In this document: positions 2,925 to 37,658 of the stretch, piece after piece
Layout: the number at the start of each line of letters is the position of its first letter
Numbering within the stretch: position 1 is the stretch's first letter
Virus record (IMG/VR): IMGVR_UViG_3300048839_000448
Coordinates: 1-43,561 of that record
From: a virus
Direction: 5' to 3' (one strand)
DNA: 43,561 bases
Program-made: the position numbers and the translations under genes
The notes under the pieces: model-generated
Databases searched by the model: none
Seen by the model: only the letters and a program-made list of their open reading frames with translations
What the model was told of the DNA's origin: nothing

Positions 2925-2953
2925 TTGCGCGACGGGGCGAGACGCGGTATACT
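2925..2953 (+). promoter_or_regulatory. promoter of structured RNA I
   Basis: TTGCGC (2925-2930), a 17-bp spacer and TATACT (2948-2953) place the start of transcription at about 2960, exactly at block A of the RNA. The -10 context GGTATACT is close to GGTATAAT before the second such RNA. Confidence 0.6.
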
Positions 2954-2960
2954 TGACCTC

Positions 2961-3059
2961 GTCTAAGTCACATCAATATGGTATCATGAGCACGAACGCC
3001 CAGTCGGGTACCATGTGACTTAGACACTCTCATGGCACCATTCCCGACTGGGCGTTTTT
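2961..3059 (+). ncRNA. structured RNA I: interlocked A-B-C-A'-B'-C' element
   Basis: Six blocks occur in order. A (2961-2973) pairs with A' (3013-3025), 13 bp perfect. B (2978-2990) pairs with B' (3029-3041), 13 positions with one G-U and one mismatch. C (2995-3008) pairs with C' (3043-3056), 14 bp perfect. Linkers are 4, 4, 4, 3 and 1 nt, and T5 follows C'. All three helices cross one another. Helices longer than one turn with 4-nt linkers are unlikely to form together fully, so alternative folds are probable. C/C' with the T-run is an intrinsic terminator upstream of the replication operon. I know no described family with this layout. Confidence 0.7.
2995..3059 (+). terminator. intrinsic terminator formed by C/C' of RNA I
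   Basis: A 14-bp perfect stem (2995-3008 with 3043-3056) runs into TTTTT (3055-3059). The loop of 34 nt is unusually long and itself contains A' and B', so pairing of A/A' or B/B' could compete with terminator formation. No strong promoter was seen between it and the primase start at 3201, so read-through may feed the replication genes. Confidence 0.6.
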
Positions 3060-3140
3060 GATTCTGCACGACTAACCTCATCCCGTCCGACCACCCTACG
3101 CGGGCGCGGGGTGGCGAGTATCGTATATGCCTGCGAACAA

Positions 3141-3200: not shown

Positions 3201-4259
3201 GTGAATCAAGAGAATCTTACCAAACCACCGGACGCGTGTCAAGTATTCATTGAAAATCCAGACGCGATTGAAACAATGGCGGAGTGTTACGCCACTACTC
3301 AGGATTTTCTGAACCACCTGTTTTACGGCATCCCCGGCCCAGTCTATTTTGAACTAACATTCATCGCGCCGCCTGGGGTGAACGTAGACGGGCCGCACAT
3401 TGTTACAAAGTCATACCAGATCGGCGCAGAGCTGCCGGACTGGGAATGGGTTGAGTCCATGAATAACGCGGGTTATGGGGTGTACTATGGGTTAACGCCC
3501 AAGAAAACGCGGATGCCCGAACACCGACGCAGCAATGAGTCCAACACCGCATTCTGCCAGGCGCTTTGGGTTGATATTGATTTGCAAGACAAAACGTATG
3601 CCGACAAGGACGAAGCGTATAACGCGCTGTGTGAGCACGTACCGACTGCCATCATTGACAGCGGCGGCGGGTGGCATGGCGTCTGGCGCATTCAGCCTAT
3701 CCCGGTGAACAAGACCACCCTGCCCCACCTCAAACGCACGTTGCGCGGCTTGTCGATTGCGCTCAAGTCCGATCCGAAGGTGGCAGAGCTGGCGCGAGTG
3801 TTCCGGTTGCCAGGGTACGTCAACACCAAACCGGAGCGCGCCGGGGCATGGTGCAGCGTCGTGTCGTTCGTGCCGGGCGAAATGGAATATGACTATTTTG
3901 AATACTACCGCGAGTTAGTTCCCAAACAGAAACCACGCCTCCGCATCAAGCGCGAGTTGCCGCGCGATGTCCGGCTCTCCCTGCCCCGCTGGGTGTTGGA
4001 CTACATTGAGAAAGGCGCACCAGAGGGCACGCGAAATAACAAGCTGTTCGGGGCAACGGTGGAATACCGCGTCAACGGCTACGGGTTCTCGGATGCTGTA
4101 CGCGACCTGGAACCGCGCGCCATTGCGGACGGACTGGAACCGCGCGAAATCGAGCGCACGATGGAAAGCGCGTGGCGCTCCACTGTGGGCAGCATAAACG
4201 TACCGGGGCATCTCGGCGCAATCATGGCCGCAGACGATGCGGGGGTGCGTGATGAGTAG
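3201..4259 (+). CDS. archaeo-eukaryotic-type primase / primase-polymerase
   Basis: 352 aa. The start is GTG at 3201, with GGAGG seven bases upstream; an open frame extends further 5' but without a ribosome site. The catalytic pattern of AEP primases is visible: the metal-binding D-x-D in LWVDIDLQD (124-127), the glycine-rich SGGGWHGVW (154-162) with its conserved His, and RVFRLPGYVNTK (199-210) typical of RepB-like and prim-pol members. The C-terminal part (GTRNNKLFG..., about 275-340) resembles a PriCT helical domain. It should make primers, possibly extending them, at the origin at 4602-4680. It is followed directly by the initiator and helicase, with overlapping stop and start codons. Confidence 0.85.
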   Translation: MNQENLTKPPDACQVFIENPDAIETMAECYATTQDFLNHLFYGIPGPVYFELTFIAPPGVNVDGPHIVTKSYQIGAELPDWEWVESMNNAGYGVYYGLTPKKTRMPEHRRSNESNTAFCQALWVDIDLQDKTYADKDEAYNALCEHVPTAIIDSGGGWHGVWRIQPIPVNKTTLPHLKRTLRGLSIALKSDPKVAELARVFRLPGYVNTKPERAGAWCSVVSFVPGEMEYDYFEYYRELVPKQKPRLRIKRELPRDVRLSLPRWVLDYIEKGAPEGTRNNKLFGATVEYRVNGYGFSDAVRDLEPRAIADGLEPREIERTMESAWRSTVGSINVPGHLGAIMAADDAGVRDE

Positions 4260-5238
4260 CCTCCTGCTGAAAGAACAGCCCATTGTTGTGTTGCCAGCGC
4301 TAGCTAAGGCTGTGGGGTTAAATGAAGCCATCTTCCTACAACAGCTTCATTACTGGCTCAACAAGGTTCCCAGCAGTCAAAATCTTGGACGTGTTACCGA
4401 GGGGATAGCCTGGATATACAACGATTACAAGACGTGGCAAGAAGACAACTTCCCGTTCTGGTCCATACCGACGATTCGCCGCACCGTGTCATCACTCGAA
4501 AAACAGGGGCTTATTACCACCGAAATCGAGTCAGACGCAATGGTGAACGGTGGAAAACGTAAGTGGTATACCATCAACCGTGAAGCCGTTGAATCAATAG
4601 GGTCTGATCATTTTGATCAGACGGTCGGATCAAAACGATCAGACGGGTCTGATCAAAATGATCAGACTATATATATAGAATCAGAGACTACAGCAGAGAC
4701 TACAAAACCTGAAACGGTTGCCACGCCACTTCCTGAATACTCGGATATGGCGGCTAACGCCGATGCTGGCGCATTGGAGAGCAGCGAAACTACCGAAGAC
4801 GTGGAAGCGCGTGCTGTGGATGCAGAAGCGCCGAGCGAGTTTCGCGCCATCCAGGGGCAAGCTGTGGAAGTCGTCTACAAGGGTAACGCCAAGCAATATG
4901 GCAATGCTGGCCTATTGGCACGCTGGGCATTGTGCGACGTGGAGAAGTTGAACACGCCGCGCGGCAAGCAATGGCTGGGCTGGTTGCCAGACGCACCGTT
5001 TACGCTTGTGGAGTTTGATGCCTTCCTGATGCAGTATAGCGAGCGCAATATCGAGTGGCCATCCAGTCCTGAGAAGTGGAACAAGCAGGCGTATGCCTTC
5101 CGGCACGATTCGCGCCGCGCGCAGTATATGCGCCGCGCAATGGAAAAGCACACCCCTCAGACGGAAATCAAGCCGTCCGCGTATGAGGTGGCAATGGAAG
5201 CTGCGAACAGCGTAGTGTCTGGCGAGGCGGCAGCATGA
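4252..5238 (+). CDS. phage replication initiator (winged-helix replisome organiser)
   Basis: 328 aa; ATG at 4252 overlaps the end of the primase gene, after GGGGGTG. Residues 1-110 form a winged-helix domain of the phage replication-protein type (LNEAIFLQQLHYWL, then WSIPTIRRTVSSLEKQGLI, then a strand KWYTIN). A polar, acidic linker (about 120-195) is encoded by the iteron-bearing DNA. The C-terminal part (LLARWALCDVEKL...FLMQYSERN) is a second helical domain that may contact the helicase. Such proteins bind origin iterons and load the helicase, which here is the next gene with an ATGA overlap. Placing the origin inside the initiator gene mirrors the lambda O arrangement. Confidence 0.7.
   Translation: MSSLLLKEQPIVVLPALAKAVGLNEAIFLQQLHYWLNKVPSSQNLGRVTEGIAWIYNDYKTWQEDNFPFWSIPTIRRTVSSLEKQGLITTEIESDAMVNGGKRKWYTINREAVESIGSDHFDQTVGSKRSDGSDQNDQTIYIESETTAETTKPETVATPLPEYSDMAANADAGALESSETTEDVEARAVDAEAPSEFRAIQGQAVEVVYKGNAKQYGNAGLLARWALCDVEKLNTPRGKQWLGWLPDAPFTLVEFDAFLMQYSERNIEWPSSPEKWNKQAYAFRHDSRRAQYMRRAMEKHTPQTEIKPSAYEVAMEAANSVVSGEAAA
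4602..4680 (+). repeat. replication origin candidate: three palindromic iterons plus AT-rich tract
   Basis: Three 21-bp near-palindromes start at 4602, 4624 and 4647. Each begins GTC(T/G)GATCA and ends (T/C)GATCAGAC around an A- or T-rich centre. Spacing is 22-23 bp, about two helical turns, which puts them on one face of the DNA. They are followed at once by TATATATATAG (4669-4679), a likely unwinding element. The iterons are in frame within the initiator gene and contain many GATC sites, a possible adenine-methylation target. Confidence 0.75.
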
Positions 5239-6650
5239 GCGAACAGAACCCCACCCCGTGGGAAATCAGCGCTGACGAAGTGCTGGCCGTGCTGCTGCGC
5301 AACGATAAGGCATACCAGCAGGCGTGTTATGAGTGGTCGCTCAAGGCGTTTCATATGCCGCCAGGACCGCGCCGGTTCACTATGCACGCGATCAACGCCT
5401 TACGGCGCGCCAATGAGCCGGTACATATTGCGGCGCTGGTAGATCGCAGTGACGGACAGGTTACGCCGGGATGGTTGGCGGAGCGCGTTGCGGCTTACTC
5501 GGAGGCTATGTTAGGTGAGCGGTTTAAGTCAAACGTGGAGATTTGCCGGTCACGCGCTAAGGCATACCAGGACGTGACGAATATGCAATATGCCATTGAC
5601 GAGTTAAAAAAGGCGGGTGACGAAGACGAACGGCGGCGTATCGTGGGCGAAGTGATCTCGAACCTGGGCACTGAGGCTGACACCAGCATCGAAGATTCCA
5701 CTGCTACCGCTACCGCCGCGCGCTTCCTGGACATGCTCGACGCCCCTCCCCTGCCCACGCTGACTACTGGGGTAACGTGGTTGGATAACAACACGGGCGG
5801 ACTGATGCGCAAGCAGATATGGTGGATCGCGGCGGCATACAAGAAACGCAAGTCAACACTGATGCGCAACATGGCGATTGGCCTACTGCGCAAGGGCGCG
5901 AGTGTGACGATTGCGGCGCGTGAAGGATCACAGGAACTGGTGACAGCGCAGATTATCGCCATGCTTGCGGTTGAGCAGTTACACCGCGAGGGCGTGCATG
6001 ATGCGCGGGATTCGCGCGGTGTGCCACTGGACATGATTAGTGCTACGTTGCTGATGAAGCTACGCAATACATACAAGCGAGTCATGGACAAGCGCCAGGT
6101 GCAAGCGATCAGCATTGCCGTCAGGGAGTATATGTCGTGGGGCAACCGACTGCGCATCTACGACACCACCGAAGAACACGGCGGACTGAGCGACTTTCAG
6201 AGCCTCGAAACGGTGATTGAACGTGACATTCAGATGTACGGGGTGGATGTTGTGTTCGTCGATTACTTCCAACTGTTTACGGCGGGACACTCGACGATGT
6301 ACGACAACGCCTCGCACATGGCCCGGCAAGCGCAGCAGATCGCAGCGGAGAAGAACATTGCAATGGTGATGTTGGCTCAACTGAATGAGGAAAGCGTCAA
6401 GGGCAGCAACGACAACTATAGTCCTGGCGTCAAGGGCGGAGGTGATCCGGCAGCTACAGCCGACTTCCTGCTGACGACGGACTACCCGAAGAATAGCGAC
6501 GGTGACTCGGTGTTTACGCGACTGCGCATCATGATCAAGCTGGCACGGCACGGGGAAGCGCAGAAGTTTACCGAAGTGCCCATTCATCCCGCGAGCGGCC
6601 TCATTCTGCCCACTGTCGAGATCGAGTCGTTGTCAGGCGGTGCGCAATGA
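5235..6650 (+). CDS. DnaB-like replicative helicase with degenerate P-loop
   Basis: 471 aa, ATGA overlap with the initiator. Residues 10-110 resemble the DnaB N-terminal helical domain. The RecA-like core begins about 175 (TTGVTWLDNNTGGL). The expected AxxxxGK(S/T) P-loop reads AAYKKRKS (200-207), with Arg in place of the last Gly, while Lys and Ser are kept. Walker B is VVFVDY (339-344), followed by MVMLAQLNE (377-385), matching the DnaB SQLNR motif. It should unwind DNA at the fork, loaded by the preceding protein. The P-loop change may weaken or alter ATP use, or be a tolerated phage variant. Confidence 0.85.
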   Translation: MSEQNPTPWEISADEVLAVLLRNDKAYQQACYEWSLKAFHMPPGPRRFTMHAINALRRANEPVHIAALVDRSDGQVTPGWLAERVAAYSEAMLGERFKSNVEICRSRAKAYQDVTNMQYAIDELKKAGDEDERRRIVGEVISNLGTEADTSIEDSTATATAARFLDMLDAPPLPTLTTGVTWLDNNTGGLMRKQIWWIAAAYKKRKSTLMRNMAIGLLRKGASVTIAAREGSQELVTAQIIAMLAVEQLHREGVHDARDSRGVPLDMISATLLMKLRNTYKRVMDKRQVQAISIAVREYMSWGNRLRIYDTTEEHGGLSDFQSLETVIERDIQMYGVDVVFVDYFQLFTAGHSTMYDNASHMARQAQQIAAEKNIAMVMLAQLNEESVKGSNDNYSPGVKGGGDPAATADFLLTTDYPKNSDGDSVFTRLRIMIKLARHGEAQKFTEVPIHPASGLILPTVEIESLSGGAQ

Positions 6651-7216
6651 CCTGCGCCACGCTTGAAGACGTGCTCTCGGACCTGACGACCGCTGCCGAG
6701 TCCGAGTCGCTGGCGCAGTTCGCGCAGGGCGACGTGCTGGCGCTGGCCTGCGAGCCGCAGACGCTTGCGGACATGGGCTACAGGACGCAGGGCGCGTTCC
6801 TGGCCGACGCGGGTTCGGCGGTGGGCCTCGGCCAACGGGCGCTGCTGATGCGGCTCAAGGTGGCGCGGACGTTCGCCGCGGAGCAGCGCGATCCCACGCT
6901 CAAGTGGATGACGCACTACCATGCAGCGCGCACCGAAAACCCGATCGGATGGCTGGAACTGGCGGGCGTGAACCAGTGGAGTCCCACCGACATTCAGGCC
7001 GCCATACGCGCAGACAAGGCGCACGACGACGACAGCGAGACGCTTGTGGTAGCGCGGGCACGGGTGGCGCACGTGGTGAGCGTCAGCGGGGGCAACGTAG
7101 CGCTGGCCTTTGAGGGCAAGGTGCCTGATGTGCGCGTGGGCGAGGATGTAGTGGTGACGATAGCAGTGGACCGCATACCGGTGCAAGTGGCTGCACCGAC
7201 ACAGGAGGCGAAGTGA
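6647..7216 (+). CDS. unknown protein of the replication operon
   Basis: 189 aa, ATGA overlap with the helicase and TGATG overlap with ssb. The N-terminal two thirds are helical, with an HTH-like stretch (TLADMGYRTQGAFLADAGSAVGLGQRALLMRLKVARTF split by turns, about 38-75). The last 60 residues (ARARVAHVVSVSGGNVALAFE...VTIAVDRIPV) look like a small beta domain. I do not recognise the family. Its place between helicase and SSB suggests an accessory replication or DNA-binding role. Confidence 0.7.
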   Translation: MTCATLEDVLSDLTTAAESESLAQFAQGDVLALACEPQTLADMGYRTQGAFLADAGSAVGLGQRALLMRLKVARTFAAEQRDPTLKWMTHYHAARTENPIGWLELAGVNQWSPTDIQAAIRADKAHDDDSETLVVARARVAHVVSVSGGNVALAFEGKVPDVRVGEDVVVTIAVDRIPVQVAAPTQEAK

Positions 7217-7599
7217 TGGCAGGATACCAGTACACCGTGATCATTGGTAACGTGGGGCGCGATCCTGAGATGCGCTATACCCAGAGCGGCATCGCCGTGT
7301 GCGATTTCAGCGTGGCCGTCTCGCGGCGCTGGACCGACCGGACCTCGAACGAAAGCAAGGAAGAAACGACCTGGTTCCGCATCAGCGCCTGGCGCGCGCT
7401 GGCCGAGACCTGCAACCAGTACGTTCACAAAGGCATGCAGATCATGGTGGCGGGACGCGTGAGCGCCAATGCATACAGCGCGCAAGACGGCACGCCGCGT
7501 GCATCGCTCGACTTGCTGGCGCTCGATGTGCAGTTCCTGGGCCAGCGCGGGGATGCCTCCGACAGCGCGCCGCGAGAAGCGGAGAACATGCCGTTTTGA
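7216..7599 (+). CDS. ssb: single-stranded DNA-binding protein
   Basis: 127 aa with an OB fold typical of SSB. It opens with MAGYQYTVIIGNVGRDPEMR, carries WFRISAWRALAETC and the dimer-type strand IMVAGRVSANAY, and ends ENMPF, close to the D-D-I-P-F tail that recruits partner enzymes. The ATG at 7216 is preferred over GTG 7213: AGGAGG lies seven bases before it and it matches family starts. It coats single-stranded DNA at the fork and in recombination, the latter fitting the Rad52-like protein at 40254-41108. It is shorter than E. coli SSB, with a very short linker. Confidence 0.95.
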   Translation: MAGYQYTVIIGNVGRDPEMRYTQSGIAVCDFSVAVSRRWTDRTSNESKEETTWFRISAWRALAETCNQYVHKGMQIMVAGRVSANAYSAQDGTPRASLDLLALDVQFLGQRGDASDSAPREAENMPF

Positions 7600-8831
7600 A
7601 CGTAGACGCGAATGAGCTACTGGCCGTGATTGGAACACTGCCACCGGACATGGAACGCGCTGAGGCGGTGTATATGCTGGCGACGGTGGGGCGTATGTCA
7701 CAGATGGACATTGCCCGCCAGAGCACACTCACCGAGGGCATGGTGAAGAGCGACGTGAGGCGCTGGGTGCGGAGCATGGGCGCACCCTGGCCCAGCGAGA
7801 GCGTCTCGGACGCGGGAACGTCACAGGGCGCAATGGAACACGGAGAGTCGCCATTGTCGCAGGAATCGCGCGTGGACGTCAGCGCCAACGGCGAACGGGT
7901 ATTCGTTGGAGCGGACCAGCAGCGCCAGCTACTGCGGGCGTGGTTCGGCACATCGTATCGCCCTGCCCCATTCGCGTTTCACCCACAGCGCACCGAGCGC
8001 GCGGTGGTGGGCGTGGGCGATTTGCATGGGAAGCCAGACCCCATGATTTTAGCGGAGTTGGTGAGCCGTGCGCCTGATGTGATTGTCGTGGGCGGTGACA
8101 CAACCGACGCACAATACGCCAGTCAGCACCCATCTGACACGCGCCAGGACGCGCAGCGCGACAACCGCCAGGCGGCCCGGCAAGAGTTTGCTATCTTGCG
8201 CGCGTGGTTCGAGACATTGATTGATGAGACGGATGCTAGCCTGTACGTGATGCGCGGCAACCATGACTTGTGGGCGTGGAAGCAGATTAGCGCGTTGCTG
8301 CCCGAATGGGCAGTGGAACAGTACCGCGATCCGCTCGAAATGCTGGTAGGCGACTTAGGTCCGCGCGTGGAGATGGTACGCACTGACAGCACCTATACCT
8401 TTCCCGATGGTAGCGTTGACCAGGACATCCCCGGCAACGAGTTTGTATACATTGCGGGTGACGTGCTGTTTAGCCACATCAACAAGGCGTCATCCAAGAC
8501 GCAGCCTGGCGTTGTCAAGGTGTACCGCGATTGGTTCATCCCCTGGGCGCGCGTGTTGGGTATGGGGCACGTTCGGGCGATTGTCCATTTTCATGTGCAT
8601 CAGCGGACGCTCCTGAATGAGGAAGGCGGGCACATTACACTGATTGAGCCGGGCATGGCGGGAATGCCAAGCGCAGAGCACTATAAGTTCGGGTACCAGT
8701 CCAAGTGGCGCCCCAGCGTGCAGGGGTTTGTGCAGATGACACAGTATCTCGACAGGCAGCAATGGCGAACTGACCTGGATAGCGTCGAGTTGGTAGCGCC
8801 GCGTCAGGCGCGAAAGGCGAGTGCAGCATGA
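7596..8831 (+). CDS. HTH plus calcineurin-like metallophosphoesterase
   Basis: 411 aa from TTG at 7596, overlapping the ssb stop, with GGAG 11 bases upstream. ATG at 7653 is the next choice. Residues 15-65 carry a helix-turn-helix (RMSQMDIARQSTLTEGMVKSD...). After a linker, residues 135-345 carry the metallophosphoesterase set: GDLHG (141-145), GGDTTD (166-171), GNHD (221-224) and HFHVH (331-335). These bind two metals and hydrolyse phosphoesters. Targets in phages include nucleotides and DNA ends. The N-terminal HTH fusion suggests a DNA-associated role. The wrong-frame extension upstream, within ssb, is not used. Confidence 0.85.
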   Translation: MNVDANELLAVIGTLPPDMERAEAVYMLATVGRMSQMDIARQSTLTEGMVKSDVRRWVRSMGAPWPSESVSDAGTSQGAMEHGESPLSQESRVDVSANGERVFVGADQQRQLLRAWFGTSYRPAPFAFHPQRTERAVVGVGDLHGKPDPMILAELVSRAPDVIVVGGDTTDAQYASQHPSDTRQDAQRDNRQAARQEFAILRAWFETLIDETDASLYVMRGNHDLWAWKQISALLPEWAVEQYRDPLEMLVGDLGPRVEMVRTDSTYTFPDGSVDQDIPGNEFVYIAGDVLFSHINKASSKTQPGVVKVYRDWFIPWARVLGMGHVRAIVHFHVHQRTLLNEEGGHITLIEPGMAGMPSAEHYKFGYQSKWRPSVQGFVQMTQYLDRQQWRTDLDSVELVAPRQARKASAA

Positions 8832-9055
8832 GCAAGCAGCAGTCAACGATATCCGCCAACATCGGCCCCGGCGTAGCGGTTGAGCTGGTCAAGGACATCA
8901 TCACCAGCAATATCAGCATCCCGCGCGGAACGCTGGGCATCGTGCAGTGGAGTTATCCGCGCGTGGCGCGCGTGCAGTTCGTGGGCTATTTGTCGCTGTA
9001 TGGCGTAGAGGTCGAGAAGCTCAAGGTCGTCATATTGCAGGCGGTGGCATCATGA
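8828..9055 (+). CDS. small beta-rich protein, unknown
   Basis: 75 aa, ATGA overlaps at both ends, so it is translated with its neighbours. The sequence GPGVAVELVKDIITSNISIPRGTLGIVQWSYPRVARVQFVGY alternates short strands and turns, as in small SH3-like barrels. No catalytic motif is visible and I do not recognise the family. Confidence 0.7.
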   Translation: MSKQQSTISANIGPGVAVELVKDIITSNISIPRGTLGIVQWSYPRVARVQFVGYLSLYGVEVEKLKVVILQAVAS

Positions 9056-9354: not shown

Positions 9355-9761
9355 CCGAGACGATGACTAGCGCGGAATACCACGCACTCACCAGCAAGCG
9401 CAACAAGTACAACGCCAGGCGTGTGTGCATCGACGGCTACAGTTTCGATAGCCAGGCCGAAGCGCGGCGCTATGTTTGGCTGCGCGATGAGCAGCAGGAG
9501 AAGCGCATTAGCGGGCTGCGCGTGCATCCGACGTTCGAGTTGCAGCCTAAATTTACGGATGGATCGGGAAAGAAGCATCGTGCCATCTACTACAAGGCTG
9601 ATTTCTCATACGTAAATACAAAAACAGGACGCCAAACAGTAGAGGACGTAAAGGGGGGCAAAAACGGAGCAGGAACCCGGACGCAATCTTTTAATATGAA
9701 GATGAAAATGTTCCTATACCGCTATCGGGAGGTAAGTTTTTTTATTGTGGATGACGCCTAA
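9351..9761 (+). CDS. DUF1064-type phage nuclease-like protein
   Basis: 136 aa, starting with an ATGA overlap. It matches the DUF1064 pattern: SKRNKYNARRV, then DGYSFDSQAEARRYVWL with the conserved Glu, then LRVHPTFELQPKF, YYKADFSYV with a conserved Asp, and VEDVKG, the D-x-K end of a PD-(D/E)XK site. Members are widespread in phages and are thought to be recombination or resolvase-type endonucleases, a fitting role for the last gene of this replication operon. The next promoter begins before its stop codon. Confidence 0.8.
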   Translation: MTETMTSAEYHALTSKRNKYNARRVCIDGYSFDSQAEARRYVWLRDEQQEKRISGLRVHPTFELQPKFTDGSGKKHRAIYYKADFSYVNTKTGRQTVEDVKGGKNGAGTRTQSFNMKMKMFLYRYREVSFFIVDDA

Positions 9762-9773
9762 ATGCGGTATAAT
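9745..9773 (+). promoter_or_regulatory. promoter of structured RNA II
   Basis: TTGTGG (9745-9750), a 17-bp spacer and a perfect TATAAT (9768-9773). It overlaps the end of the DUF1064 gene. Transcription should start near 9780, at the first bases of block A. The layout is the same as at 2925-2953. Confidence 0.65.
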
Positions 9774-9777
9774 TGAT

Positions 9778-9900
9778 GCGTCCGCCAAGACACAACACAG
9801 GGGTGATGCCTGCTTCGTAATATCATTGCGCATAAATCCCCCGTGTTAGAAAACCCTGTTGTCTTGGCGGACGCAGGCAGCCTAACATGGGGGATTTGTG
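9778..9900 (+). ncRNA. structured RNA II: interlocked leader RNA of the HNH gene
   Basis: Same topology as RNA I with unrelated sequence. A (9778-9792) pairs with A' (9860-9874), 15 bp perfect; ACAGGG (9797-9802) with CCCTGT (9854-9859) extends the helix past a 4-nt bulge. B (9807-9811) pairs with B' (9875-9879), only 5 bp. C (9831-9849) pairs with C' (9882-9900), 19 bp with two G-U pairs. A and C cross as a long H-type pseudoknot. C' contains GGGGGA, the only ribosome-binding sequence for the HNH gene, and ends two bases before its ATG, so the C helix would block translation. There is no T-run after it. Confidence 0.7.
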
Positions 9901-9902
9901 TT

Positions 9903-10715
9903 ATGCCAACAGGACATTATGAACGAAAGCCGCGTGTAAAGCGGGTGGTGATATACTGTGAAATTTGCGGAGCGCCGATAGAATTGTTCCCCTCTGTACT
10001 TAAGCAGCGGGGGCATGTGCGCTATTGTTCTAGAGAATGTTGTGCAATAGGCCAAAGAAAACCAGGAAGATACGTTGAGTTAGAATGTGATTATTGCGGA
10101 AAAACGTTTGTAAAACGAGCAGATCACGTTAAGGCGCGTAATTTTTGCAGCCAGGATTGCAGCGCAAACGGACGCCGCAAAAAGTATTCCAAGTGGCGCG
10201 ACCCGCTATATATTAAAAAATATAACAGAGAATATAACGCTAAAAACAGGGAAACCGTAGCGAGGGTCAAGAGAGAGTATGCGATTAAAAACCCAGATGT
10301 CGTTAAGTCCGCAAAAAGGAAATGGCGCAAAAACAATGGGAGTATTTCGACGTTTAAACATCGCGGCAGGAAAAAATCATTGCCAGTTTCCTATTCTGAA
10401 GCCGACTGGTTACAAGCGGTTGAGTATTTTCATGGATGTTGTGCGGTTTGTGGACGGCAAGGAAGTGACTTATTTGGAGAACACTATTTGGCGCGTGACC
10501 ATTGGATTCCATTGAGTTATATGGGCGATGATAATCCTGGGACCGTGCCGACTAACATTGTCCCGCTATGTCAAGGTATTGGCGGATGTAATAACTCTAA
10601 GGGAAAAGAAATGCCCAAAGCATGGCTAGCAAAGCGATTCGGGACGCGCAGGGCAGCTCAGATTGAAAAAAGAATTGAGGGGTATTTCGCATGGATAGAC
10701 GCAAAGGCGGCGTAG
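9903..10715 (+). CDS. HNH endonuclease with two N-terminal zinc fingers
   Basis: 270 aa. It starts at ATG 9903 (MPTGHYERKP), the usual opening of this phage family; an in-frame GTG at 9843 lacks a ribosome site. Two Cys4 fingers are visible (C19, C22, C42, C46 and C62, C65, C82, C86). They are followed by a basic helical linker and an HNH domain: C180/C183, DH at 199-200, N218, C223 and N230/N231. It should nick or cut DNA, probably as a homing endonuclease. Base composition is clearly more AT-rich than its neighbours, indicating recent insertion. Translation is probably governed by RNA II. Confidence 0.85.
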   Translation: MPTGHYERKPRVKRVVIYCEICGAPIELFPSVLKQRGHVRYCSRECCAIGQRKPGRYVELECDYCGKTFVKRADHVKARNFCSQDCSANGRRKKYSKWRDPLYIKKYNREYNAKNRETVARVKREYAIKNPDVVKSAKRKWRKNNGSISTFKHRGRKKSLPVSYSEADWLQAVEYFHGCCAVCGRQGSDLFGEHYLARDHWIPLSYMGDDNPGTVPTNIVPLCQGIGGCNNSKGKEMPKAWLAKRFGTRRAAQIEKRIEGYFAWIDAKAA

Positions 10716-10787
10716 GAACACAAAACGCGCCGGGTTGGGCGCGCTGTGGTAAGAAAACTATATCTGGCGCGCGGGGCGCTACGGGTG

Positions 10788-10793
10788 TATAAT
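10788..10793 (+). promoter_or_regulatory. -10 box for the ParM/ParR-like operon
   Basis: TATAAT at 10788-10793, 33 bases before the ParM-like ATG. The -35 is poor (CTGGCG, 10764-10769). The 110-bp gap after the HNH gene also holds a CGCGCC/GGCGCG hairpin (10726-10743) and several GCGCGC words. These could include the partition protein's binding site, though no regular iterons were seen. Confidence 0.5.
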
Positions 10794-10826
10794 ACGGCTG
10801 TATTCGGTCATATTTGGAGGTCCAAA

Positions 10827-11915
10827 ATGAGACGAAAGGCAGGTCGGTTTGCACCCATGAATGACATTCCGGTTATTCTCGACTTGGGCCATTATGCGCT
10901 CAAGGGCATTGTTGGAGACGACGAACGCCGCCGCGAAAGTCTGCGGCATGGGCTGATGGAAGTCAGCCGCGATGACTGGCAAAACGTGGTTGATGCGGGC
11001 AGTCAGTCGCATCCCGATTATATCCGTGTCGCCAACCGCTATTATGAGGTTGGGCAAACGGCGCTCAACCATTCGAGCGCGCCAACGGTGGAAGGGGTAG
11101 ACCGCTACCATCGGAATTATTATGGCGTGTTGATGTGCGCCATGATTGCACGATTATTCGATCCGCGCGAAATTGACAGCGCGGTAGTGTTCGCATCATA
11201 CCCGCCCGGCGACAGACGACACAAAGACGAGTTAGAGCGTGCGCTTCTGGGGTTATGGGACTTCGAGCACATGGGGCGCGCCTTCCATGTTACAGTTCGT
11301 CGTGTAGTCACTTACGCGGAGCCGATGGGCGGGTTCTGGAACTTTGTTATCCAGGGTGATGCCAACGGGCAATATGATAACGCGGACTATAACCCGCGCC
11401 GCCAAACGTTGGTGATTGATCTGGGTGGTGGCACAATGTCCATGTTGCCAATTGGCAATGACCAACTGCCCGATTTTCGCCGGGCGTACTCGTTCGCCGT
11501 TGGGTTTAACAACGTGGCGGAGTGGTTCGAGCGTGAAATGCGCGCATCCTACCGTGATCTATTTCGCGGTTCCCGCAACCTGCCAGATGACCTCGTGCAT
11601 GAGGCGCTTGCTACTGGCCGGTGGTTCGGGGGCGGTGACGACGAAGGGCTTGATGTATCGCGTGAAGTTGAGAGCGCAATGGCCGAATTGGTCGAGCAGT
11701 TCCGTACAGGGTTCCACCGGGCAGGGGGCGCGCAACCTTACGGCCAAATCATCCTTACGGGCGGCGGCAGTGCTATCCTGGGGGAGCGGCTCAAGTTGAT
11801 GTCGGGGCACAAGCGAGTATTCTATGCGCTCGATGACATGGCAACTTTGCACTTTGCGAACGTTACAGGCGGACTCAAGGCGTACCGCGAAATCTTCGGG
11901 GAGGTCATGTCATGA
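10827..11915 (+). CDS. ParM-like actin family ATPase
   Basis: 362 aa; ATG at 10827 with TTGGAGG six bases upstream. The actin/Hsp70 nucleotide-binding blocks are in order: phosphate-1 VILDLGHYALKGIVG (about 16-30), connecting region (about 125-135), phosphate-2 TLVIDLGGGTMSM (about 195-207), and adenosine motif IILTGGGSAILGERL (about 308-322). ParM-type proteins polymerise into filaments that push apart DNA molecules held by ParR. Phage relatives also move DNA or anchor replication. The next gene, overlapping by ATGA, has the size and position of the ParR partner. This suggests stable extrachromosomal maintenance or positioning. Confidence 0.8.
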   Translation: MRRKAGRFAPMNDIPVILDLGHYALKGIVGDDERRRESLRHGLMEVSRDDWQNVVDAGSQSHPDYIRVANRYYEVGQTALNHSSAPTVEGVDRYHRNYYGVLMCAMIARLFDPREIDSAVVFASYPPGDRRHKDELERALLGLWDFEHMGRAFHVTVRRVVTYAEPMGGFWNFVIQGDANGQYDNADYNPRRQTLVIDLGGGTMSMLPIGNDQLPDFRRAYSFAVGFNNVAEWFEREMRASYRDLFRGSRNLPDDLVHEALATGRWFGGGDDEGLDVSREVESAMAELVEQFRTGFHRAGGAQPYGQIILTGGGSAILGERLKLMSGHKRVFYALDDMATLHFANVTGGLKAYREIFGEVMS

Positions 11916-36350: not shown

Positions 36351-36592
36351 CAATCACACTCCTGAAGATACAAAACTTCCGCTGCAAGGCTGCGCAAGTC
36401 GTCCAGCGGTTGACATAAGATAAGATTGCGTCCGTGACATGTCAGGATCGAAAGATTGACCAGTTTGCTATCAATGATCGCGTTACATTCCTCGCGGGTC
36501 ATGTGTGCCGTGCGCGCTTCGTATTCGATCATCTTCGCGCGTTCCGCCTCAATCTGTGGTCCTGCGTTGCGCCAGTCGTTTTTGTCGCTCAT
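36350..36592 (-). CDS. small unknown protein downstream of integrase
   Basis: 80 aa from ATG 36592, AGGAG upstream, ATGA overlap with the integrase stop. Helical start (DWRNAGPQIEAERAKMIEYE), then MTREECNAIIDSKLVNLSIL. Translation is coupled to the integrase. It could be a directionality factor by position, without motif support. Confidence 0.55.
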   Translation of the reverse strand: MSDKNDWRNAGPQIEAERAKMIEYEARTAHMTREECNAIIDSKLVNLSILTCHGRNLILCQPLDDLRSLAAEVLYLQECD

Positions 36593-37542
36593 TCGCCTTT
36601 TCTCCTCACATACGGCAGCCGTCGCGTGTTGGCCGCCTGCTTCTTGATTTCCTCTTTGCGCCGGTCGTACTGCGCTGTCGTCTCCACGTTGCTGTGGCCC
36701 ATCATGCGCGCCACCGTCGATATATCGACACCCTCGGTCAGCAGGTCGCCTACCGCCGTGCGCCGGAAATTGTGCGGGCGTGCATCCATGATGCCTACCG
36801 CTTTCCCGCGCCGGTCGACCATGTAGTAGATCGCCTGAGCCGAGAGCCGTTTTTCCTTCAGTCCGCCGCCCTTGTTGACCGGCCAGAACAGCGCACCTTC
36901 CGCATGACCACGCAGCGCCAGCCAGTCGGCCAGCGCGTCGCACGTTCCGCCGTCCAAGAACGTATCGCGCGCCTTGTCGCCTTTGCCGTGACGCACGCGG
37001 ATTTTACCGGATTCGGCGTCATAGTCGCCCACGTCCAGCGCAGAGACTTCGGCGCGTCGCAAGCCTGACCACAGGATACCGATGATCGCCGCGTCACGCG
37101 GGCCGGACGGGGTTTCATCCTCCATGCAGACCGCAATCATGGAGCGCACTTCGCCAATGGTGTAATCGCGTCCGGTGGGCAAGTGGCGGTCGGAAAGGTT
37201 CTTGAAATCGACCGCGCGCTGATATTCCTCCGCCGTCATGTAGCCCAGCCGCCAGCATTCTTTCAGGACGCCACGCAGAGCCGACAGAATCTTGTTGGTC
37301 GTTCCTGGTGCGAAGCGCTGCGACAATGCCGCCCGAATCGCCATCGTGTGCTGGTAGCGCAGTTGCCCCCAGCCCGCGCCCAAACGCACCGCGCCCAAGT
37401 CCGGGGCAATGATGTCGGCAATCACGTCAAGCGCCTGGATCATCGTGTCACGCGAGCGCTGCGCTTGCAGGCTGCCCAGGTACACGAGGACCGGGTTCTG
37501 GTCGGCGGGCACCCTGGAGCCGTCGAGCGGGATTAGTGTCAT
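36589..37542 (-). CDS. int: tyrosine integrase
   Basis: 317 aa; ATG 37542 with GGAGAGGA upstream (the longer frame would read through the attachment site). An N-terminal SAM-like core-binding domain (about 15-115) is followed by the catalytic domain with Arg162 (SGLRRAEVSAL), Lys187 (HGKGDK), His257 and Arg260 (RPHNFRR), His283 (MMGHSN) and Tyr292 (AQYDRR). All key residues are present. It recombines attP with a host site. The tRNA-like sequence starting 17 bases upstream is the likely attP. Confidence 0.92.
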   Translation of the reverse strand: MTLIPLDGSRVPADQNPVLVYLGSLQAQRSRDTMIQALDVIADIIAPDLGAVRLGAGWGQLRYQHTMAIRAALSQRFAPGTTNKILSALRGVLKECWRLGYMTAEEYQRAVDFKNLSDRHLPTGRDYTIGEVRSMIAVCMEDETPSGPRDAAIIGILWSGLRRAEVSALDVGDYDAESGKIRVRHGKGDKARDTFLDGGTCDALADWLALRGHAEGALFWPVNKGGGLKEKRLSAQAIYYMVDRRGKAVGIMDARPHNFRRTAVGDLLTEGVDISTVARMMGHSNVETTAQYDRRKEEIKKQAANTRRLPYVRRKGE

Positions 37543-37558
37543 GATGCGTCCTCTCCAT

Positions 37559-37658
37559 TGGTGCCCCCCTGAACGGAATCGAACCGTTACTGGTTGGCGC
37601 GCTACGCATAGATGCAAACATCACAGTCCGGCGCGTCTCAGACCCACCAGGGCGGGGC
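37559..37658 (-). other. tRNA-like sequence, probable attP
   Basis: On the minus strand there is a perfect T arm (AACGG-TTCGATT-CCGTT, 37588-37572), then CAGGGGGGCA and CCA (37571-37559), just before the integrase gene. GCCCCGCCCTG (37658-37648) is largely complementary to the acceptor 3' strand, but the D and anticodon arms do not fold properly. It is best read as an attachment site carrying the 3' part of a host tRNA, possibly with remnants of more. A functional phage tRNA is less likely. Confidence 0.55.

Follow-up and report, generated by a model that had tools for sequence, protein, structure and literature searches.

What does a phage gain from three sequence blocks that are followed, in unchanged order, by their complements, so that the helices they form cross? 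The question is raised by nucleotides 2961-3059 (hereinafter designated RNA1) of the 43,561-nt viral record IMGVR_UViG_3300048839_000448, which was analysed at full length and is called the window below. A sequence-only reading had described a free-standing small RNA with helix order A-B-C-A'-B'-C' and its own promoter and terminator. Checking the window sequence confirmed this order, with blocks of 13, 13 and 14 nt, linkers of 4, 4, 4, 3 and 1 nt between successive blocks and a T5 tail, as well as two perfect helices (13/13 and 14/14) and a third with 11 Watson-Crick pairs, one G-U pair and one A-C mismatch. The features of RNA1 and its surroundings are as follows.

2925-2953, + strand: putative promoter read from the sequence, TTGCGC - 17 - TATACT
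2961-2973, + strand: block A, near the expected transcription start; pairs 13/13 with A' (3013-3025)
2978-2983, + strand: ext (ATGGTA), 6/6 Watson-Crick pairs with TACCAT at 3009-3014; lengthens hairpin A
2978-2990, + strand: block B in its full version, the imperfect partner of B' (3029-3041)
2984-2990 with 3029-3035, + strand: B helix compatible with ext (TCATGAG/CTCATGG), 7 bp (6 Watson-Crick and 1 G-U)
2995-3008, + strand: block C, pairs 14/14 with 3043-3056; 5' arm of a terminator-like stem
3009-3014, + strand: ext', partner of ext
3013-3025, + strand: block A', partner of block A
3029-3041, + strand: block B', of which 3029-3035 can coexist with ext
3043-3059, + strand: block C' and T5 tail (T5 at 3055-3059), terminator-like; GGGCGTTTTTG is identical in element E1 of a relative
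3201-7599, + strand: replication genes (primase-like, DnaD-like loader, DnaB-like helicase, an unknown gene and SSB)

Beyond its 14/14 Watson-Crick core, the C helix extends by a G-U pair to 2994-3008/3043-3057. ATGGTA is at once ext and the 5' half of the 13-nt block B; since it also pairs into hairpin A, only a 7-bp B helix is left. The claim of a dedicated promoter held in part. The -10 element TATACT (2948-2953) is present, matching at 5/6 positions 7 nt upstream of A, and GCGGTATACT is kept at the equivalent position in the relative's homologous element. The -35 element TTGCGC (2925-2930), at a 17-nt spacing, matches at just 3/6 positions, and for this reason the promoter is not listed by a generic promoter scan of the window. 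The case for this putative promoter rests on conservation in the relative. The location of RNA1 ahead of the replication genes stands as described, with the first gene starting 140 nt downstream.

A scan of the window for crossing helices gave as its top pairs RNA1 (score 73) and a second element at 9777-9901 (85.5; hereinafter designated RNA2), compared with maxima of 58-64.5 in six block-shuffled copies. RNA2 lies in front of an HNH endonuclease gene and is laid out as follows.

9745-9773, + strand: putative promoter, TTGTGG - 17 - TATAAT, with GCGG ahead of the -10 as in RNA1
9777-9792, + strand: block A, pairs 16/16 with A' (9860-9875)
9797-9802, + strand: ext (ACAGGG), pairs with 9854-9859
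9807-9813, + strand: block B (TGCCTGC), pairs 7/7 with 9873-9879, 3 nt of the latter common with A'
9830-9849, + strand: block C, pairs with 9882-9901 (17 Watson-Crick and 3 G-U, 20 bp)
9854-9879, + strand: ext', A' (9860-9875) and B' (9873-9879)
9882-9901, + strand: block C', holding the Shine-Dalgarno sequence (SD) GGGGGA at 9889-9894, 8 nt ahead of the start codon
9903-10715, + strand: HNH endonuclease gene (PHROG HNH endonuclease, 7e-15 for the longer open reading frame 9843-10715)

RNA2 begins 3 nt past its -10, which has the same GCGGTATA core as that of RNA1; in their best local match the two elements have at most 6 nt in common. The SD of the endonuclease gene lies inside a stable helix, as in leaders that sequester the ribosome-binding site (RBS), and the gene is presumably controlled by RNA2.

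Comparison with other phages required relatives of the window. DNA-pattern scans and single-protein scans (primase-like, DnaB-like, capsid) of viral contigs returned none, a DnaD-like alignment search gave 160 mostly Firmicutes-type loci that were used only as controls, and a DnaB search of 400 genomes from the phylum of a Thermomicrobiales contig, which we take to be Chloroflexota, found nothing. A capsid search in genomes of that phylum yielded three distant prophages, and alignment with two of these gave 55 viral loci, including the relatives. The putative host assignment draws on distant capsid relatives only. The closest relative is IMGVR_UViG_3300028920_000764 (G413; loci L182, L239 and L240; capsid 68%, portal 58%, SSB 61%, primase-like 43%), and a scan with the primase pair returned just this known relative. 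Strong elements come from the window and this relative and a weak one from a third genome, which adds four elements to RNA1 and RNA2.

L239, 10691 to 10592, - strand: E1, before the primase region of IMGVR_UViG_3300028920_000764; homologue of RNA1
L239, A starting at 8944 and C' ending at 8795: E2, before a homing/HNH-type gene
L239, 4284 to 4180: E3, before a homologue of window gene 6647
L246 in IMGVR_UViG_3300033480_000004 (G416): E4, before an HNH homologue; weaker, without B

Scan matches in the other capsid relatives, which lie inside long open frames, were ruled out as GC-rich coding noise and iterons. In a distant relative, L219 8374-8466 carries CAAGGGG/CCCCTTG, CAAGC/GCTTG and AACGCCACAGATT/GGTTTGTGGCGTT, followed by TTTGTTTT; it is a possible further family member whose score is within noise.

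In E1 to E4 the start codon follows C' by 14-17 nt (16-17 nt in E1, E2 and E4). This leaves no room for another promoter, so the elements are leaders, and the view of RNA1 as a free-standing small RNA is not supported. A similar putative promoter stands in front of each leader, with weak -35 boxes; these promoters and the transcription starts are read from the -10 boxes. Either C' is closed by a T-run or it overlaps or borders the ribosome site of the following gene: a T-run follows it in RNA1, E1, E2 and E4 (4/6), and RNA2 and E3 are without a clean one. A putative promoter, a terminator stem with T-run and a gene lacking space for a promoter of its own make up the layout of an attenuator leader, which favours the earlier suggestion that C/C' could act as a (predicted) attenuator.

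RNA1 and E1 are the one pair of clearly homologous elements, the other four being alike in design and not in sequence. The two have the promoter core, ATGAGCANGAACGCCC and the terminator sequence GGGCGTTTTTG in common. Helix A of E1 differs from that of RNA1 at many positions yet is paired throughout and is lengthened to 17 bp, and helix B of E1 (AGCGTATGA/TCATACGCT, 9/9) occupies the same place with another sequence. Over the 27 pairs defined on RNA1, five are changed on both sides (four in A and one in C), two have turned into wobbles and one, in C, is broken; two pairs at the inner end of A could not be compared, as they lie beside a gap in the alignment. When the partners are slid, 0-1 paired changes are left; the corresponding shuffle control (22/500), drawn from two sequences, is a weak one. 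Blocks changing in related phages without their partners had been named as evidence against the pairing; in the related phage they change together with them. A leader peptide at 2986-3018 (MSTNAQSGTM, in E1 MSKNAPSGS) was considered and is disfavoured, having no SD; several of the changes alter the peptide, and most keep C paired.

The order [A][ext][B][C][ext'][A'][B'][C'] is found in five of the six elements (RNA1, RNA2, E1, E2 and E3) with no exception among these five, each of which has an equivalent ext helix. A and ext form one hairpin, B measures 6-9 bp and C 15-27 bp. Helix A consists of Watson-Crick pairs only in all six elements (68 pairs, no G-U), and helix C has G-U pairs in every one (17 in total), which point to pairing at the RNA level. 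A/A' and C/C' have no base in common in any element, and they cross. For the crossing pair of RNA1 and for its triple, 0/3000 shuffles reached either score; the triple score was likewise reached by 0/3000 for RNA2, E1 and E3, by 1/3000 for E2 and by 15/3000 for E4. In 1.94 Mb of unrelated phage loci there was no non-coding match at the thresholds passed by the relatives' elements, nor at a score of at least 70. Relaxing the triple score to 58-66 brought up matches in controls and shuffles too, and only the strong elements are therefore claimed. Rfam 15 gave no match above the gathering threshold for the window, L239, L246 or L182, and chance-level matches only at open thresholds.

We think it reasonably probable that RNA1 is a member of a small family of cis-acting phage 5' leaders that switch the gene just behind them. 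Judged from their sequences, the leaders probably work as self-folding on/off switches. The sequence-only reading had anticipated several alternative states, and the predicted folds agree. In minimum-energy folds of growing transcripts, hairpin A appears once A' has been made in five of the six elements (in E2 the ext and B helices form first), and the full-length minimum is C/C' in all but E1, where A stays. Energies with A and with C are -32.0 and -36.2 kcal/mol in RNA1, -52.5 and -53.0 in RNA2, and -46.5 and -43.6 in E1, placing the two states within about 4 kcal/mol of each other in these three; C/C' wins by more in E3, E4 and E2. Computation supplies this folding order; switching, its direction and the signal behind it are our inference.

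As RNA polymerase advances, hairpin A, with ext, would close first and hold C in its loop. B' would then pair with B just outside A', clamping the hairpin-A state. C' is made last, and C/C' would be the OFF state, either a terminator or, in RNA2, a helix hiding the RBS. So long as hairpin A and helix B stay intact, with C enclosed in a loop and the 3' end not yet released by the polymerase, winding of the long C/C' helix should be difficult, and transcription and translation would go on. Should A fail or be opened, C/C' would form and either stop transcription (RNA1, E1, E2 and E4) or hide the ribosome site (RNA2). Antiterminator and terminator of an attenuator usually share a strand, whereas A and C have no bases in common; simple strand exchange cannot switch them, and their exclusion, if real, is topological. 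The sequences are compatible with either direction of the switch, A blocking or helping C. Several points count against the switch model: the C/C' loop of about 29-50 nt, unusually long for an intrinsic terminator, the broken pair in C of E1, the lack of a clean T-run in RNA2 and E3, the 140 nt between RNA1 and its first gene, and the weak -35 boxes.

Two options exist for A and C: a pseudoknot in which both are present, or a delay of C/C' by A and B. If A, B and C all formed together, the leader would be a stable and perhaps knotted pseudoknot, serving to position C/C' or to shield the mRNA against decay from its 5' end, with no switching. Stacking should favour both helices at once, as A and C compete for no base; helix A begins close to where the 5' end is expected; and the near-equal helices of RNA1 (13, 13 and 14) with linkers of 1-4 nt are compatible with an antiparallel three-helix bundle. 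In E1, however, the linkers of 3, 0, 2, 1 and 0 nt are too short for full helices of 17, 9 and 21 bp, a helix longer than one turn is difficult to wind within a closed loop when the 3' end is in RNA polymerase, and protection gives the T-runs after C' no role. We consider this static structure unlikely and, on account of the E1 linkers, prefer the co-transcriptional switch. A more far-reaching version of the switch, that the leaders are natural knot-forming RNAs serving as a topological switch, is a doubtful idea. The hairpin and the B clamp would ring C, the terminator helix could not wind while the 3' end is in the polymerase, and the RNA, once released, could tie into a knot, exclusion being due to topology and not to strand competition. 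A pseudoknot can be knotted once both of its helices measure at least about 11 bp (PMC5381007), and the crossing A and C helices reach this length in RNA1 (13 and 15 bp), RNA2 (16 and 20 bp), E1 (17 and 21 bp, one mismatch) and E3 (12 and 19 bp).

Another account is ordinary RNase III sites or simple RBS or terminator hairpins, with an incidental crossing order: long perfect helices are common near phage gene starts, and RBS-sequestering structures occur at homing endonuclease genes of T4-like phages (PMC2988022). Nested hairpins would serve equally well, however, and instead one three-helix crossing order recurs in five elements, with no non-coding match this strong in the unrelated loci, so that we give this account little chance. 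We rate no higher a trans-acting immunity or copy-control RNA, in which the terminated 100-nt RNA would pair with the leaders of other copies and enforce termination before the replication genes. In phage P4, CI RNA stops replication-gene transcription through base pairing with seqA, upstream of it, and seqC, downstream (PMC4825925); RNA1 precedes replication genes in a phage that also encodes integrase and ParM-like genes; and the sequences differ among elements, as expected of self-specific systems. Yet two molecules pairing A:A', B:B' and C:C' would face the same crossing problem, and elements before HNH genes do not suit an immunity role. Pairing with another molecule had also been put forward for RNA1 from its sequence; no second RNA partner or separate antisense copy was found, and neither RNA1 nor RNA2 showed notable complementarity to the other or elsewhere. 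Least probable is that the repeats act in DNA as repressor operators. A/A' and C/C' are indeed inverted repeats beside promoters, starting 2-3 nt past the -10 in RNA2 and E1, but their arms are wholly different between elements and would not be read by one protein, the many G-U pairs in C are meaningless in DNA, and T-run and RBS position are strand-specific.

Replication and HNH or homing endonuclease genes are often kept low or delayed by phages. RNA2, which hides the SD of an HNH gene 8 nt before the start codon, resembles the RBS-sequestering leaders of the phage homing endonucleases T4 I-TevI, segB and Aeh1 mobE, and E2 and E4 likewise precede HNH or homing endonuclease genes. Unlike those single hairpins, the RBS or terminator helix here is crossed both with a third helix and with a hairpin that forms earlier and does not overlap it, and replication genes, too, have leaders of this design. 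An earlier structure set against a downstream intrinsic terminator by co-transcriptional folding is shared with attenuators and pseudoknot riboswitch leaders such as the fluoride riboswitch, from which these leaders differ in having no conserved ligand-pocket sequence. As with P4 CI, seqA and seqC, complementary blocks lie in one leader before replication genes and the output would be premature termination; P4, however, uses one processed antisense block with two targets, up- and downstream, whereas here there are three distinct block pairs and several unlike copies per genome, and the only block with two partners, ATGGTA of RNA1, has both downstream. The put RNAs of HK022, antiterminators with which early transcripts begin, have a common sequence and two stem-loops (PMC9378689). 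The leaders resemble them in length (about 70-100 nt), in their early-transcript position, in occurring more than once per genome and in their relation to termination; put RNAs bind RNA polymerase through their stem-loops, whereas RNA1 and RNA2 share almost no sequence and their helices cross.

The crossing blueprint is absent from the homing-endonuclease leaders, P4 CI and HK022 put. Few natural RNAs are known in which two helices, each exceeding a turn, cross. Among RNA structures determined so far, only that of RydC, a 65-nt sRNA, is knotted (PMC11218946), and the existence of RNA knots in nature has been called an enigma (PMC5381007). In the leaders described here, the crossing design is kept by several unlike sequences: a small family with several copies per phage retains crossing helices of 12-27 bp and replaces their sequence. 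Such leaders would allow co-transcriptional control by topology to be tested in a compact system, and would be a new means by which phages restrain replication and homing endonuclease genes.

Several further features of the window were observed. Upstream of RNA1, 2798-2876 is tRNA-like, with a complete T-arm and acceptor end (CAGGGTTCGAGTCCCTGCATCTCCA), and is uncalled by ARAGORN; it is perhaps the att site for the tyrosine integrase at 36589-37617 (- strand). Also upstream, on the other strand, 697-1905 encodes a ParB-like N-terminal half fused to a DNA methyltransferase C-terminal half. Downstream of RNA1, 3242-3143 (- strand) carries a strong promoter (TTGACA-17-TGgTAAGAT) and a terminator (GCCGCGACTCCCATCGCGGCTTTTT) and is predicted to yield an antisense RNA of ~65 nt with two hairpins. 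The primase-like gene has the SD GGAGGAA, to which a loop of this RNA, TTCCTCC, is complementary; the RNA looks like a copy-control antisense RNA. Palindromic repeats of GTCTGATCATTTTGATCAGAC type at 4602-4668, within the DnaD-like replication gene, are likely iterons of a replication origin. Between 13333 and 13520, behind another GGTATACT box and before a methyltransferase gene, an intergenic stretch with no Rfam match contains several possible hairpins and GGTGCAAGTCCG. The viral record is linear and may lack part of the genome. A ParM-like actin (ALP_N, 10746-11915) adjoins the replication genes, with the integrase encoded elsewhere, and together they suggest a possible phage-plasmid life style.
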